Source: Antedon mediterranea
Lineage: Eukaryota > Echinodermata > Crinoidea > Comatulida > Antedonidae
DNA: 64,000 bases
Direction of reading: 5' to 3'
Assembly (NCBI RefSeq): GCF_964355755.1
Contig: NC_092671.1
Location: 36,039,304-36,103,303 of the forward strand
Both the position numbers and the translations under genes were made by a program. Shown piece after piece: positions 1,881-54,318 of this stretch. The notes under the pieces are model-generated. The model was given only the letters and a program-made list of their open reading frames with translations, made no database searches and was not told where the DNA came from. Every line of letters begins with the position of its first letter. Position 1 is the first letter of the stretch.

Positions 1881-2883
1881 GTTTGACAAGAAAACTCTGT
1901 AGGCACTGGAATCTGTTTTACCACTTTTTTTTATCCAGGTAGGCTATGCACAAATTGAAACATACATCCACACAATTTTAGGCAAAGGCACCCTCTCTCC
2001 CTAGTTGAAATCAACATTATATCTAATTATTGCCATATAGTTATACCTTGATACCTGGTCCATCACAAATCACCACTCAAAGAAACCTACATCACATGGG
2101 AAATCCTGTGTTACGAAGATCAAGACTTGGACATATAGTAATGAAACATACACACCACACATTTCCATATACGAATTATGATTGGATAATGATCAAGCCT
2201 TTAAAATTTAAAGTTAAATTAATAGAAATATTGTTCTCCAGGTTGTATATCTCTGTATAAACACATTAGTACGTCTGAGAGCATTCAAAACTCCCCTGAC
2301 TGCACATAATTATATTGAATGGTTCATTTCCCGAATTCTGTTATCGCGATAAGCAATTCTCGACGACTGCGGCTGAATCTTTAATAATTTTATTAACAGA
2401 ACTGTTTTCAAATAAGAGTAATTGACGGCAGCAATTGTACACTACAGGTTTGTTGCGGTTTATATCGGTTCAATAGCACGATCAATTTGTCGTTGTTCGT
2501 AACAAGTTAGCTTTGTCTTGGCAGCGTACACGTCCCATGTCCCAGTCACGTCATCGCAATCCATGTCCAAGACACAATGGAAATCAAGCCATTTAGCATG
2601 GCACCTATTGTCTATCCTGTTGCACGCCAATAGGGAGAGCATTTAACGACATTGGCAAGATTAAGAATTTTTTTTCATTTTAAACCGTTCTTTTTTTACT
2701 CCTACACAAAAAAACTATTTCAATAATTTAATACAATTCTAAATAGTAATAGTTTGTAATAGTTATTCCTTGCCACTGCCTTTGTTCCATACATTTTTTA
2801 TTATTAAACGGCTTTGTTTAAATAAATTTTGTTAATAAAAAGAGTAGCTAAGCAAAGAGATTTGATAAAATATTTATGGCATT

Positions 2884-3325
2884 GGCCCATTCACACTAGG
2901 ATGATAACGATCGATGATAAATATATAAATATGCATTTTTCATACATAAAACAAAATAAATCTAACAAGTTTTCATCCTATAACTATAAGAAAACCATCT
3001 ATGCTTCCTTTGATGAAAATGATATTTTGACACATGCAATCAAATGATGTCATGTTAAGTAATAATATAAGAACAATAATATTGTGACAATTTTAATCTT
3101 TTTATTAATCATTTGATTAGATTAAAAAAAATATTAATTTTAATAACATCATAAATGATTATTCTATAGCTCTAGAATGAAAACCTTTCTAATTTTATGT
3201 TATGTATGAAAAATGCATTATTATCTATTTATCGTCGATCGTTATCGTCCTATCCTTTAATTGATGTAAAAAAAAATGCCTATTTATTTATCTATTGATC
3301 ATTATCATCCTAGTGTAAATGGGCC
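2884..3325. mobile_element. foldback-2 MITE
   Basis: GGCCCATTCACACTAGGATG at the left and CATCCTAGTGTAAATGGGCC at the right are inverted copies, with GATAACGATCGA...ATAAATATA inside each arm. An extra inner copy of the arm is seen at about 3225-3255. Confidence 0.88.
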
Positions 3326-3380
3326 TTTAATTATTTCAAATAATGTACCACGTAGTAAATCCGTTCATTACATAACTTAC

Positions 3381-20511
<17,131 letters not shown>

Positions 20512-49020: not shown

Positions 49021-49433
49021 GTTTCCACATTCATCTAATTTAGGTTTTGAACAAAACTTATAGAATACAGAACAAAATAATGTAAACTTGTTTTATTGTC
49101 GTATTTCTAATAATTCAAAATATGATTTATTTCGTTTAATTATTGAATAACTCAAAATGTATTTTTATATTAATCAATAATATGAAAACATCAGTAACGC
49201 CTCATAGTTGACCGCTGAATACAATACACAATAGACACGGATGAAAGCGTTCGTTTGTTAGGCCTACTATTAATATGATGATCAAACGCATTCGAATGAT
49301 TGGAGAGAAATTTGAAAATTCAAAATTTAAGATTAATAAAATCAGACTTTAAATAGGCCATTGTGCACGTAGAAAAATAAATAAATAAATGAATGAATCA
49401 TTTTACTTATAAACCATAATTATATTATAGTCT

Positions 49434-49535
49434 AAAGCTCTACATACAAATGACAAATGTGATGAGCCCGATCGACACGATGATGTAATAAAAACACTAC
49501 CAACATTTTTGTCAAACTAGTTTGAGTGAAGAGTA
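49434..49535. mobile_element. worn foldback-1 MITE
   Basis: AAGCTCTACATACAAATGAC and a TTTTTGTCAAACTAGTTTGA half remain; the rest is diverged. Confidence 0.5.
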
Positions 49536-49599
49536 AATTTAGACGGACAATTTGAACAATGTTACTTTTTCCAGGCCTACAGTTTTTCAGGTAAATTTT

Positions 49600-49745
49600 T
49601 CAGATCCAATGTTTGGTCCATAGCTTGAGAAAATTTAACTTAATATTTCTCCATGGTCAGTTTCTGCCTAATTTCAGATCCAATATTTGGTCCATAGCTT
49701 GAGAAAATTTAACTTAATATTTCTCCATGGTCAGTTTTTTCCTAA
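49600..49745. repeat. two tandem copies of a ~75-bp unit
   Basis: CAGATCCAATGTTTGGTCCA with the following text to TTCTCCATGGTCAGTTT occurs twice directly before the left end of the long-TIR transposon. Confidence 0.85.
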
Positions 49746-49747
49746 TA

Positions 49748-50490
49748 GCAGGGTAACTTAGCACTTTTTTTGTGCACTTTGTGACAAAAGCACCAAATTT
49801 GGCACAAACCTTCTTTAGGGTATATCTAACAATCCTAGAAGGGGTGCCCAAAAATCGGAACAATTTAACGACGTCATTTGGACCACGCCCTTTTTTAGTA
49901 TTACGTAATTAGGTGAAAACTTAAATCTTCGTATATACATACCAAGTTTGGTATCAAATAAAAACTCATGACATGTACATTACAATACACACATAACAAA
50001 TATATGATTTCTCTTCAGACGTGACGAAATATATAGGTCAAATAATGTAATTTTCTGTCATATTGAAGGGTATTTCAATCAAAACGTGCCAATATTGTGC
50101 TATGTTATGAACATTGTAGTTATAAGAACAACAACATTCATTTTTGTAATAGTACGAATATATTTATCCTGTACCAGTTACTTTCCTTTAAAATAATATT
50201 AGGAACCACTGAAAAAAAGTATATAAAACATATACTGTATCAAACTTGGGCTCAATAACCACTGGACTATTAGTAAACCGACAAAAGACCATTTGACTGA
50301 CAATTATGGCGTTAGCATCCATAACAATACATGGAGGTGATTATCAACTTTACTTTTATGAAATTATTTATCTGGAAACAAACACTTATAATGGTACAGA
50401 GTTGCTAGATGACGAACAAGTTCCACGGCATGGGTAACAAGACCAGTGCACTGCTGAACGGCACTTGCAGTTCCCTGAGCAAAAAGGCAA
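49748..50490. repeat. left terminal inverted repeat
   Basis: Inverted copy of 52497-53257. It contains a plus-strand frame MALASITIHGGDYQLYFYEI (50306-50437) and, on the minus strand, the cysteine-rich C-terminus of the element's protein ending at 50386. Confidence 0.85.
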
Positions 50491-52689
50491 CTTTTTGCAG
50501 CCACACTTTAGCAATTCCCTACATGCCTTGGATGCTTCAGGTAGTATTGTCCAGACTGGTGTCCATGTACTGCCGGTTTTAGTAATAATAATAATAATAA
50601 ACAGTATTTATATAGCGCCTAATGGATCACTGACCCCTCTAGATGCTTTACATAGGACCTTAACTAATGGTAATAAACTATCCCCCGCCGGACACCATTC
50701 CGGTATTTCTTAGTCGAGGTTTCGGTCCAACCAAAGTCTTCTGGTGATGGAGCATTCTGCTGTGGCTGTAGACTGGTGGTCCAAATCCTTGCTTGGTATA
50801 TGGATCTGTTGGAATGCTGTAAAAGTGCATCCTGCAATAAACAATTTAAAGATTGGTGTTACCTTTTAATAAAAGAAAAACATGAACCTGATAATAAATT
50901 ATTAAACGACAATTGACAATTATATGGAAGCTCCCCTTACCTGTGTAGGAGGAATGTTGTCCATTGTCCGTGCCTTTCTTGAAAAAAGATCTTGTCTTAG
51001 CTTAGTAACACTTCTTAAAGTACTTGTCTTGTCGTATAGATGACATGTAAACTCCTCTAGCAACTGGAATTGAGATGAGTTGACTCCTAGAGATTTGAAA
51101 AGGTGATGTGCCATGAAAAGAAAGGCTTCTGTAACTTCTGGAAATGAGTTCCACGTCTCCCATGCGGAGTGTTTTGCTTTTCCGAAGAACTGGGATGTAG
51201 TATCGGACCCAGTAAATGCATGAAAAACTGGCAGCCCTCTTGACTTATCCTCTCCTAGGTTATGGCAGATGGTATTTATATTAAAATATTGGAAGTGCTT
51301 ACCCATGCCAAATGCGACCCAGATACACGTACCAGGATAACAGGCTATTAGATTGCAGAAAATACCAACCAGGATAACAATGACATCAGTATCAACTGTA
51401 CGCACCAAAATAACCCTGCTACCTTTCTTTAAGGCATCATCAATGTGAATGCACATCTTGGAGTCGGCCTCTTCATGGTCGCAGATTGACATAGGTTGAG
51501 TAGATGTCAACATACAAAAGACTCGCCTACAGGACATATATCAAGAATTACTTACTATTTAATATGCCTTTTTAATTAATTATTGGTATGAAACTGTATA
51601 AGTAAATTAATCGTTTGGTTACAAACAAAATAAATTAGTATGTATCATAATAAAACTTACCTGATGCAGTCAGAGTAATCATGGGTAGACACCTTTGTAG
51701 TTAAAAAGTTAAATAACTCCTCTTTATTTACTGGATCTTTCAGAAAGTCTGGAAAATTCCCTGGAATCTTTGTTTGTCCCCCAACTTTCCTCCTGACCCC
51801 TTTTCCTCTTTTTTCTCCTGTAGACTGCTTAAGACTATCTGTTCTGTAAGTGTCCCACACTATATCAATTCTGTTACTATTCTGCATCTGCTGTCTGGTC
51901 CACGGTAGAAAGACCTGTCATACAAATGATACAAGAATAACGATCCGCATATAGAAGTGACCAATTATATGGTGGTTAAACAATAGATACAATCCTGAAT
52001 GCAAAGAAATGTACTCACCTTATCACCGTAGTCATCAAATGTAAATGCATGGTTGCTGGAAAGAGCATGGACAATAGCAGCTCCGTCAAACACCTTTACA
52101 TCAAAATATGTAGGAGGTTCAGGCTGGCCTTCAGTCTCCAAATGCTGTAGCAACTCAGACTTCTTAGTTGGTAGTCGAAGCTTTCCATTTACTGCCAAAG
52201 AGGGTGGCCATGGCTGGTTTTCGTGCATGAAGAAGTCTTCCAAATCTCCATCACGAGATTGACTTGCAATATACTCTTAACTTGTTGCTTTGTTTTGGAC
52301 ACTGATTTTGACCATGGTGTTTGATGGCTTGTTGAATAATTGCAACACTTCTGTCGAGAATAACTTCCTTGAAATATTTTTGGTACTGGGTAGTACCTAC
52401 ATCCTGAATTGTACGAACTGTCACTACTGCACTTTCATTGGCACAATCTCGAGCATCCAAGACCAGAAGTTCTGAACAATTATCGAGGAATTGGTTGCCT
52501 GCATTGCTCAGGGAACTGCAAGTACCGTTCAGCAGGTCTTTCTTGCACTGGTCTTTGTTATCCATGCCGTGGAACCTGTTCGTCATCTAGCAACTCTGTA
52601 CCATTATAAGTGTTTGTTTCCAGATAAATAATTTCATAAAAGTAAAGTTGATAATCACCTCCATGTATTGCTATGGATGCTAACGCCAT
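50386..52689 (-). pseudogene. transposon gene with HEEAD-DTDV-TGSDTT motifs and Cys-rich tail, broken
   Basis: The N-terminal part (52586-52251) reads MDNKDQCKKDLLNGTCSSLS and LVLDARDCANESAVVTVRT. After a frame break comes YIASQSRDGDLEDFFMHENQ and PEPPTYFDVKVFDGAAIVHA. An intron (52018-51915, GTGAGT...CAG) leads to VFLPWTRQQMQNSNRIDIVW and EKRGKGVRRKVGGQTKIPGN. A second intron (51660-about 51513) precedes CDHEEADSKM, VILVRTVDTDVIVILVG and VFHAFTGSDTTSQFFGKAK; a third (50940-50832) precedes ALLQHSNRSIYQARIWTTSL and PEDFGWT. A repeat insertion (50580-50716) separates this from TWTPVWTILPEASKACREL and the tail KCGCKK...CSGNCKCRS...CRGTC. The acidic motifs recall PIN/FEN-type nucleases; that is inference. 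Two frame breaks and the insertion mean this copy is inactive. Similar proteins are, as I recall, common and uncharacterised in invertebrate genomes. Confidence 0.8.
50580..50716. repeat. short repeat inserted in the transposon gene
   Basis: An AATAAT run leads into CAGTATTTATATAGCGCCTA and ends before TTTCGGTCCAACCAAAG. It interrupts the frame between FGWTET and STWTPVW. A related AATAATAACAGGATTTTTAT...GCGCAC stretch lies at 30070-30150. Confidence 0.65.
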
Positions 52690-53257
52690 AATTGTCAGTC
52701 AAATGGTCTTTTGTCTCAGTTTACTTAGTCCAATGATTATTGAGCCAAGTTTGATACAGTATATGTTTTATATACTTTTTTGCAGTGGTTCCTAATATTA
52801 TGTTAAAGGAAAGTAACTGATACAGGATAAATATATATTAGTAGTTGTATTACAAAAATGAATGTTGTTGTTCTTATAACTACAATGTTCATAACATAGC
52901 CCAATATTGGCGCGTTTTGATTGAAATCCCTTTCAATATGACAGAAAATGACATTATTTGACCTATATATTCCGTCTGAAGAGAAATCATATGTTTTTTA
53001 TGTGTGTATTGCAATGTACATGTCATGAGTTTTAATTTGATACCAAACTTGGTATGTATATACGAAGATTTAAGTTTTCACCTAATTACGTAATACTAAA
53101 AAAAGGGCGTGGTCCAAATGACGTCGTTAAATTGTTCCGATTTTTGGGCACCCCTTCTAGGATTGTTAGATATACCCTAAAGAAGGTTTGTGCCAAATTT
53201 GGTGCTTTTGTCACAAAATGCACAATCTTCATAAAAAATGGAAGTTAGCAACCCTGC
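52497..53257. repeat. right terminal inverted repeat
   Basis: Mirror of the left repeat. On the minus strand it has the same MALASIAIHGGDYQLYFYEI frame (52689-52558) and the N-terminal GMDNKDQCKKDLLNGTC. On the plus strand it preserves the C-terminal frame CSGNCKYRSAGLSCTGLC, which is a dead reflection at this end. Confidence 0.85.
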
Positions 53258-54318
53258 TATAATAGGACAAGAAATATTTCTTACAAAAAACGCTGCTCAC
53301 TTATTGAAAAATATTTTTTATTTCAACTGTTTTTGAATGTGTCATTTTATTGTCACATAATAGTTATTTTACCTGAAAAAAATGTAATTTAAAGCAACAA
53401 ATACTTGTCTGTCAGACAATGGTTTTTGGGTTTCTTTTCTTTTCGCGCCGCGGCTCTAGCCAGCTATGTCCCAGGAGGACACATTCATTAATAAGCTGTT
53501 TCATAGCGGTAGCTTTAGTATCTAAGGCTGACAGTTTTGTGAATTTGGAAACTCGACTATAATTTATAGGTAGCTGCTGGACCCAAAAAACGTCTGGGAG
53601 AAGAGAGTCTATATGAAAGCCTTTGCTGATAATACAGTATTATTGAGATGTAGACGGAAATCTGTAAAATCTTGATCAATAAATAATAACTTCGTTTTTG
53701 CTGTCAACCAGGCCGGTATTATAATAAGTCACTGTTATCATTCGATAATGGTCAAAACTTTATTTTGGCTCTGTCAACATAAAGGGAGGTATTTACAATG
53801 ACTTTCTTTGACTGTCAATCTAGGCCAATGTTATAATAATACGCCGTCAGATATTAAATCATTGAAACAGTCCTCGTAAATTTTTTGTTGGTTATCAGAT
53901 GCCGTGGGGGGTCCAATCAATTATCGTCAGAAGGTGAACAATCAGTCTAGGTAGCAGCAGCAGATTATTAGGAACGCCTGCTCCATTAATTAATCCAGAA
54001 AAAGGTTTGTACATTATCTATTTGTTTATTAGCCTTCTCCTAACACAATTATATTTTCTTTAAAAAAAAGGTTTTATAAGTGGTTTCAACATTTATGATA
54101 GTAATGTCACAGTTCTGTGTCTGGACGCAAGTTCATAGACCTACTAGTTATATTATTCATATTAACTGATACTTACTCTTCATTTACCGTAAAGTTCAGT
54201 TTTAATGAAATATATAATATAAATTGGCTTCGTAACAATTAATTAGTTTTGAAAAGGTTAGTTTTTTGGTGATAGGTGAAAATGACATGTAACTTCGTAA
54301 TCAATTTATTTTTTTTGT

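Follow-up and report, generated by a model that had tools for sequence, protein, structure and literature searches.

The window, a 64,000-nucleotide stretch at C2:36039304-36103303 of the Antedon mediterranea genome, contains a transposable element of 3514 bp (49746..53259) whose gene lies on the minus strand and whose ends, TAGCAGGGT...ACCCTGCTA, were set by comparing 20 copies and correct those given in the preliminary description. The element is flanked by the target-site duplication TAA on the left (49743..49745) and on the right (53260..53262), as read in the window sequence and in line with the 3-bp rule found in 18/20 copies. Two 74-bp tandem copies, 96% alike, occupy positions 49598-49745 and abut the element's left border.

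Self-comparison of the region 49400-53600 of the window revealed inverted arms (49745-50482 versus 52504-53260) made up of eight pieces, seven of them 90-99% and the outermost 70% complementary. The left terminal repeat (49746..50482, plus strand), delimited by these arms and by those of other copies, represents the 3' end of the gene and extends across its last codons. The right terminal repeat (52504..53259, minus strand), delimited by the arms and by the unextended 5' end of a relic, L040, represents the 5' end of the gene. Within the left repeat lie the gene's last ~31 codons and the stop (50386..50482, minus strand), a cysteine-rich C-terminal frame, CSGNCK...CRGTCSSSS, which ends at 50386 and carries an 8-bp and a 1-bp deletion relative to its reflection. 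Within the right repeat, a minus-strand ATG frame of 111 aa begins at 52586; its first part, the ATG with ~27 codons (52504..52586), gives an open stretch of ~28 codons that forms the apparent start of the gene and, according to the frames and a homology search, is the antisense of the gene's own tail. The reflected C-terminal frame (CSGNCKYRSAGLSCTGLCYPCRGTC; 52490..52609, plus strand) represents an older form of the tail, lies outside the gene, and belongs to a plus-strand reading that is open across 52394-52609. The preliminary description held that terminal repeats of ~0.75 kb overlap coding sequence on both strands and that each contains a reflection of the other end; arms of ~740-760 bp and the frames found in both of them confirm this, and its placement of the C-terminal codons in the 3' repeat is borne out for the window family.

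Between the repeats, the minus strand carries the remainder of a four-exon gene, with all exon borders read by eye. The remaining exon 1 (52020..52503) is homologous to relatives elsewhere in the genome, and in the window copy its frame is broken by 25-bp and 34-bp deletions. Exon 2 (51657..51915) is followed by the best conserved part, exon 3 (50942..51535), with the motif series EEAD...TVDTDV...GSDTTSQFFGK. Exon 4 (50386..50825), the last, is split by a nested insert of ~142 bp (50583..50724) with a probable AAACC duplication, likewise read by eye.

Copies in the genome and comparison of their arms

A search of the 354-Mb assembly with the right end of the element returned at least 41 matches (40 of 136 candidates were scored), so that the other copies the preliminary description had proposed to look for exist by the dozen. 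An exact search with the 18-letter 5' end identified 40 places, compared with 0 for the control; 31 of these lie in or at fetched stretches, and the other 9 have exon-1 matches nearby. The fetched end at C1:33598974 is a single repeat fragment. Besides the window copy, 20 copies were cut out, and self-comparison found inverted arms in every one of them, ~650-740 bp long in 19 and 319 bp long in L009, the 3' arm of which is broken.

Target-site duplications, which had also been suggested as a check, were found in most copies. With the window copy counted and L009 excluded, the flanking 3-bp sequences match in 18/20 copies, the exceptions being L004 and L006, while mismatched flank pairs taken as a control agree in 21/380 cases; none of the 20 copies tested has a 4-bp flank match. 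Reading by eye added matching triplets in all seven additional copies whose fetched sequence includes both ends (L031 and L034-L039); L032, L033, L040 and L041 were left out of this reading because both ends are not visible.

The arms were compared across 28 copies, of which 27 have two readable arms, giving 55 arms. The inverted-arm structure is not a product of chance: in these 27/28 copies the two arms are 96.1-98.3% identical over ungapped columns, with a mean same-copy 5'-3' identity of 0.971 (0.961-0.983). Mean identities of 0.973 between 5' arms, 0.976 between 3' arms and 0.968 between the 5' and 3' arms of different copies differ by only a small contrast. The nearest arm, however, is the same-side arm of another copy in 52/55 cases, the exceptions being L008_3, L019_5 and L019_3, with the two arms of L019 nearest each other. 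This pattern leads us to reject ongoing conversion; judging from the arm sequences, recent conversion is not what keeps the repeats alike, as the preliminary description had proposed.

The distribution of small deletions points the same way. The copies belong to three subfamilies, A (which includes the window copy), B and C, and the tail is shortened by two deletions, of 8 bp and 1 bp, in most 3' arms of A and B (82-91% per column); adding up to 9 bp, they restore the frame. The majority of C lacks these losses, and they are absent from the reflections. The reflected frame at 52490-52609 is indeed open and better preserved, as had been noted, but it seems so because most of the used tails in A and B took deletions.

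Subfamily C (L034-L039) differs in another respect: compared with A, B and the relic L040, its two ends have traded their outermost ~48 bp. A crossover between the arms that inverted the interior would be expected to leave this arrangement, and two further columns common to both C arms may record an early exchange or conversion. A similar process, inversion through recombination between end repeats, has been reported for IS elements (PMC3004938); unlike that case, the present element is eukaryotic and the exchange is common to six C copies instead of being a polymorphism at one locus.

Relatives, relics and the probable derivation of the long repeats

A genome search with exon 3 returned 151 matches, of which those at ~50% identity or lower represent other families, and ten loci from these matches (L021-L030) were fetched as a set of relatives. 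On the window-family frame, homology to exon 1 sets in at residue 22-31 for 8/10 relatives and at residue 165 for L030; L022 has no exon-1 match, and none of the ten shows homology before residue 22. Since the repeat encodes approximately the first 28 residues, homology begins at its inner edge or at most 6 residues inside it. In four relatives the open frame continues unbroken upstream of the homology onset, for ~180 (L025), ~220 (L027), ~500 (L028) and ~250 residues (L029). Taken together, the onset of homology and these longer frames indicate that the apparent start has no counterpart in the relatives and that the part preceding it there is gone here: at the level of sequence comparison, the first ~28 residues mirror the gene's tail in antisense, and the window family has lost the N-terminal half that the relatives carry.

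The 3' side of the gene gives a complementary picture. The C-terminal tail matches 8/10 relatives up to residues 79-93 of the ~100-residue exon-4 query, reaches residue 39 in L030, and finds no match in L027. In all six relatives in which both features are readable, the stop codon falls outside the main repeat, at a distance of 122-391 bp; broken frames make its position less sure in L023 and L026. In L023, L024 and L025, small inverted pieces of 21 bp approach the stop to ~100 bp. For L027, L028 and L029, the fetched stretches gave no recognisable pair of repeats enclosing the entire gene, and the six exclude these three and L030. The claim that the gene spans both repeats therefore holds for its end, which lies in the left repeat, but not for its start in the right one, which is contradicted by homology, by the upstream frames of the relatives and by the relics L040 and L041 described below.

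As separate observations on the relatives, L023-L026 make up a related family; on the 5' side, its terminal repeats align in several registers spaced by ~160 bp, as though tandem subrepeats were present. In L025, three frames are open across ~2463-3434, and by eye a peptide of the type HVCSLCAQFLHYSFLL recurs there.

Members of the window family itself preserve earlier states. A search with the extra coding piece of one intermediate copy, L034, identified 10 places (10/10 candidates scored), corresponding to the six copies of subfamily C, the relics L040 and L041, and two distant relatives. By coordinates, all six C copies have the repeat joined straight to the relatives' coding sequence, the junction in L034 reading ...SSLSKKA followed directly by IPIHIRDM, and they retain ~360 bp more coding sequence, upstream of where it resumes in A and B. 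By eye, a short AGCAA is common to both ends of this ~360-bp deletion.

The relics retain upstream exons. L040 shares the family 5' end for ~266 bp, of which ~180 bp are nearly identical and the remainder weaker; it then continues with a 5' sequence of its own, matched only by L041 among 32 other sequences compared, and with an upstream exon that is homologous to relatives and absent from the window family. The extended part of the repeat has no match in either relic. No 3' end of L040 turned up in the 5.6 kb that follow, the 5' end of L041 is interrupted, and no match to the N-terminal half was obtained farther out from the relics in the fetched stretches. On the basis of L040, with its unextended end, its own sequence and its upstream exon, we take the part of the right repeat beyond the outer ~200-266 bp to be the 3' end copied in inverted orientation, in place of the original 5' region.

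We therefore consider it highly probable that the element is a non-autonomous derivative of an AcademX-like DNA transposon whose repeats were extended over the tail of its gene, whose 5' half was lost and which was moved in trans. The ancestor would have had shorter terminal repeats, roughly 200-270 bp by an estimate based on one relic, and a long transposase gene, of which it then lost the 5' half. In the same event or near it, the 5' repeat would have gained length from a copy of the 3' end in inverted orientation, comprising the 3' untranslated region and the last ~31-38 codons. Break repair, with the two repeats serving as mutual templates, is the most likely route: a broken 5' end may have paired with the 3' repeat of the template, and copying may have run inward past the repeat until the copy was joined with what was left of the coding sequence. 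In A, B and L040 the 5' arm has kept an outer end of the 5' type, a pattern consistent with copying that set out from inside the repeat and proceeded inward. A later ~360-bp deletion would have given rise to subfamilies A and B, the ends presumably remaining functional throughout, and the ATG frame of the right repeat would be a by-product.

Some observations weigh against this derivation. The repeat ATG and the coding sequence are joined in frame in both C and A/B, for which we estimate a chance of about one in nine. Neither the ancestor nor a trans-acting source appeared in our searches; the end-sequence search (40 of 116 candidates scored) and an exact-letter pattern search both failed to yield an intact, autonomous element sharing these ends. 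In addition, the ancestral repeat length is an estimate from a single relic, the 3' end of L040 not having been found and the 5' end of L041 being interrupted. The four open exons of the reference copy L014, the small contrast in mean arm identities, the mutual proximity of the two L019 arms and the two columns common to both C arms also count against it.

Coding state and alternative readings

Most copies are disabled, and often in the same way. A 25-bp deletion in exon 1 is common to all 11 copies of subfamily A. Counted from the end of the repeat-derived part, exon 1 of subfamily C has a TAA at position 333 in 6/6 copies and another at position 210 in 5/6. Among 29 copies, L014, which served as the reference, is alone in keeping all four exons open; every one of the remaining 11 copies of subfamily B carries one or more frameshifts or stops. 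The ATG with the exon-1 frame is open in several copies. Among 32 sequences searched, the ~142-bp insert in the last exon is found only in the window copy and L002, which lie at different genomic sites; this means that transposition has occurred in a copy whose last exon was broken. The comparison of sequences likewise shows that two of the three subfamilies, A and C, spread while sharing a disabled frame.

The pattern of substitutions gives no sign of selection on the encoded protein between subfamilies. The majority sequences of B and C differ at 3 synonymous and 17 nonsynonymous positions (307 and 1118 sites), and those of A and C at 5 and 20 (303 and 1089 sites); these ratios are close to the ratio of sites, and the two comparisons are not independent, since both include C. 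The differences between A and B, 3 and 3, are too small to be informative. In the repeat-derived start, where B and C were the only pair open to comparison, they show 0 differences in 82 sites (18/29 copies aligned). The shared disabled frames, together with the lack of purifying selection, indicate that the copies are non-autonomous, and from their spread with broken frames we infer movement in trans.

Several other readings of the locus were weighed against this derivation. The one that survives best, improbable as it is, supposes that the truncated C-terminal half is made as a regulator, for instance a dominant-negative form of the full transposase, with the repeat supplying the start codon. 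In L034 and in A/B the repeat ATG leads in frame into the coding sequence, and the exon borders seem intact by eye, both of which would suit such a protein; there is, however, no synonymous excess between subfamilies, and the shared mutations of A and C break its frame. To a related proposal we give a slightly smaller chance still: in a founding copy, the antisense of the gene's own tail could have acted as a working N-terminus, and a spliced, translated transposase half could have regulated the full element, from a messenger whose complementary ends could fold together. RNA folding of the repeat-derived start region gave nothing beyond what shuffled sequences give.

It is very improbable that the element is autonomous, with a gene that has its true start in one repeat and its end in the other. 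The open ATG and exon-1 frame of several copies, the four open exons of L014, albeit the reference, and the high identity between copies, which implies recent activity, would all agree with autonomy, yet the relatives' N-terminal part is missing, A and C have spread with shared disabled frames, and purifying selection between subfamilies is not apparent. We reject a true gene start in the repeat in view of homology, the relics and the shared disabled frames. Least probable of all is that long repeats are ancestral, that the relatives shortened theirs and that ongoing conversion keeps the arms alike: arms 96-98% identical and the exchanged ends and shared columns of C could be cited for it, but same-side arms are nearest in 52/55 cases, the relics do not match the extended part, and the stop codons of 6/6 relatives lie outside the repeats. 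The structure is real and was misread as a gene architecture; it is that of a non-autonomous element with a repeat lying over its own gene tail.

Precedents and classification

The preliminary description knew of no named element built in this way, but Galileo of Drosophila willistoni, a member of the P superfamily, provides a precedent. There, the last 69 bp of the transposase frame lie in the 3' repeat and are present in reverse at the 5' repeat, the repeats measure ~760 bp, copy 147 has at least 545 bp of the transposase frame in the repeat, and no putatively functional copy was found (PMC4168063). The window family resembles it in repeat length and in having the end of the transposase frame within the 3' repeat and inverted at the 5' repeat; it differs in belonging to another superfamily, in having lost the 5' half of the gene and in a reflected tail that happens to supply an in-frame ATG. 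Similarly, Galileo of D. mojavensis has repeats extended by recruiting adjoining non-repeat sequence in inverted orientation, with the longest repeats in non-autonomous copies; recombination and post-excision breaks are discussed in that study (PMC3573991). Inverted recruitment and long repeats in non-autonomous copies are shared with the window family, the difference being that D. mojavensis Galileo recruits the spacers F1 and F2 and not coding sequence. The relic, intermediate and derived copies, found in one genome, display how an end repeat can swallow its own coding sequence, now outside Drosophila Galileo, where this had already been described. They also carry a warning for annotation, as an open frame that begins inside a repeat of this kind can mirror the tail of the gene instead of marking its real start.

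The motifs EEAD, TVDTDV and GSDTTS of exon 3 resemble, we presume, those of XPG-type nucleases. Galileo and the P superfamily are characterized by a P-type transposase with a THAP domain and by a longer target duplication. The window family has 3-bp duplications, Pfam lists no THAP or P-type match for it, and the end of the transposase frame lies inverted in both terminal repeats. Our AcademX-like label rests on the 3-bp duplications (18/20 copies; control 21/380), on the presumed likeness of the exon-3 motifs and on the published definition of AcademX, which has 3- or 4-bp target duplications and is linked to a nuclease (PMC10045372). The likeness comprises the duplications, a long gene and a conserved C-terminal half that is XPG-like by those motifs; unlike AcademX, the window element has no N-terminal half and cannot be autonomous. 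No DDE transposase was recognised, as the N-terminal part carried by the relatives is absent here, and this absence makes the element a derivative and not an autonomous AcademX member. Among openly licensed publications, judged by titles and the beginnings of abstracts, no AcademX element with coding sequence in its repeats was found.

Database profiles added little to the label. Pfam gave no match above cut-off, XPG included, for the window protein or its relatives, and a PDB profile search produced no match with the query A1 and only unrelated matches with the query A2, at E 0.078 or worse. A genome search with PF00867 identified 6 places, none at a listed element copy, and a single-sequence fold prediction, with a pLDDT of 37.8, was too poor for comparison with XPG. 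Below the cut-off, the tail of the window protein weakly matches DUF7736, and the relatives weakly match DUF6589, a Rop-like family, DUF6984 and a cysteine-rich TCR model. A literature search pairing DUF6589 with Academ returned nothing. The DUF6589 matches, also below cut-off, fall in the N-terminal part of L027 and L029 (E 0.0036 and 0.012), and a link between DUF6589 and Academ-like transposases is possible on this basis.
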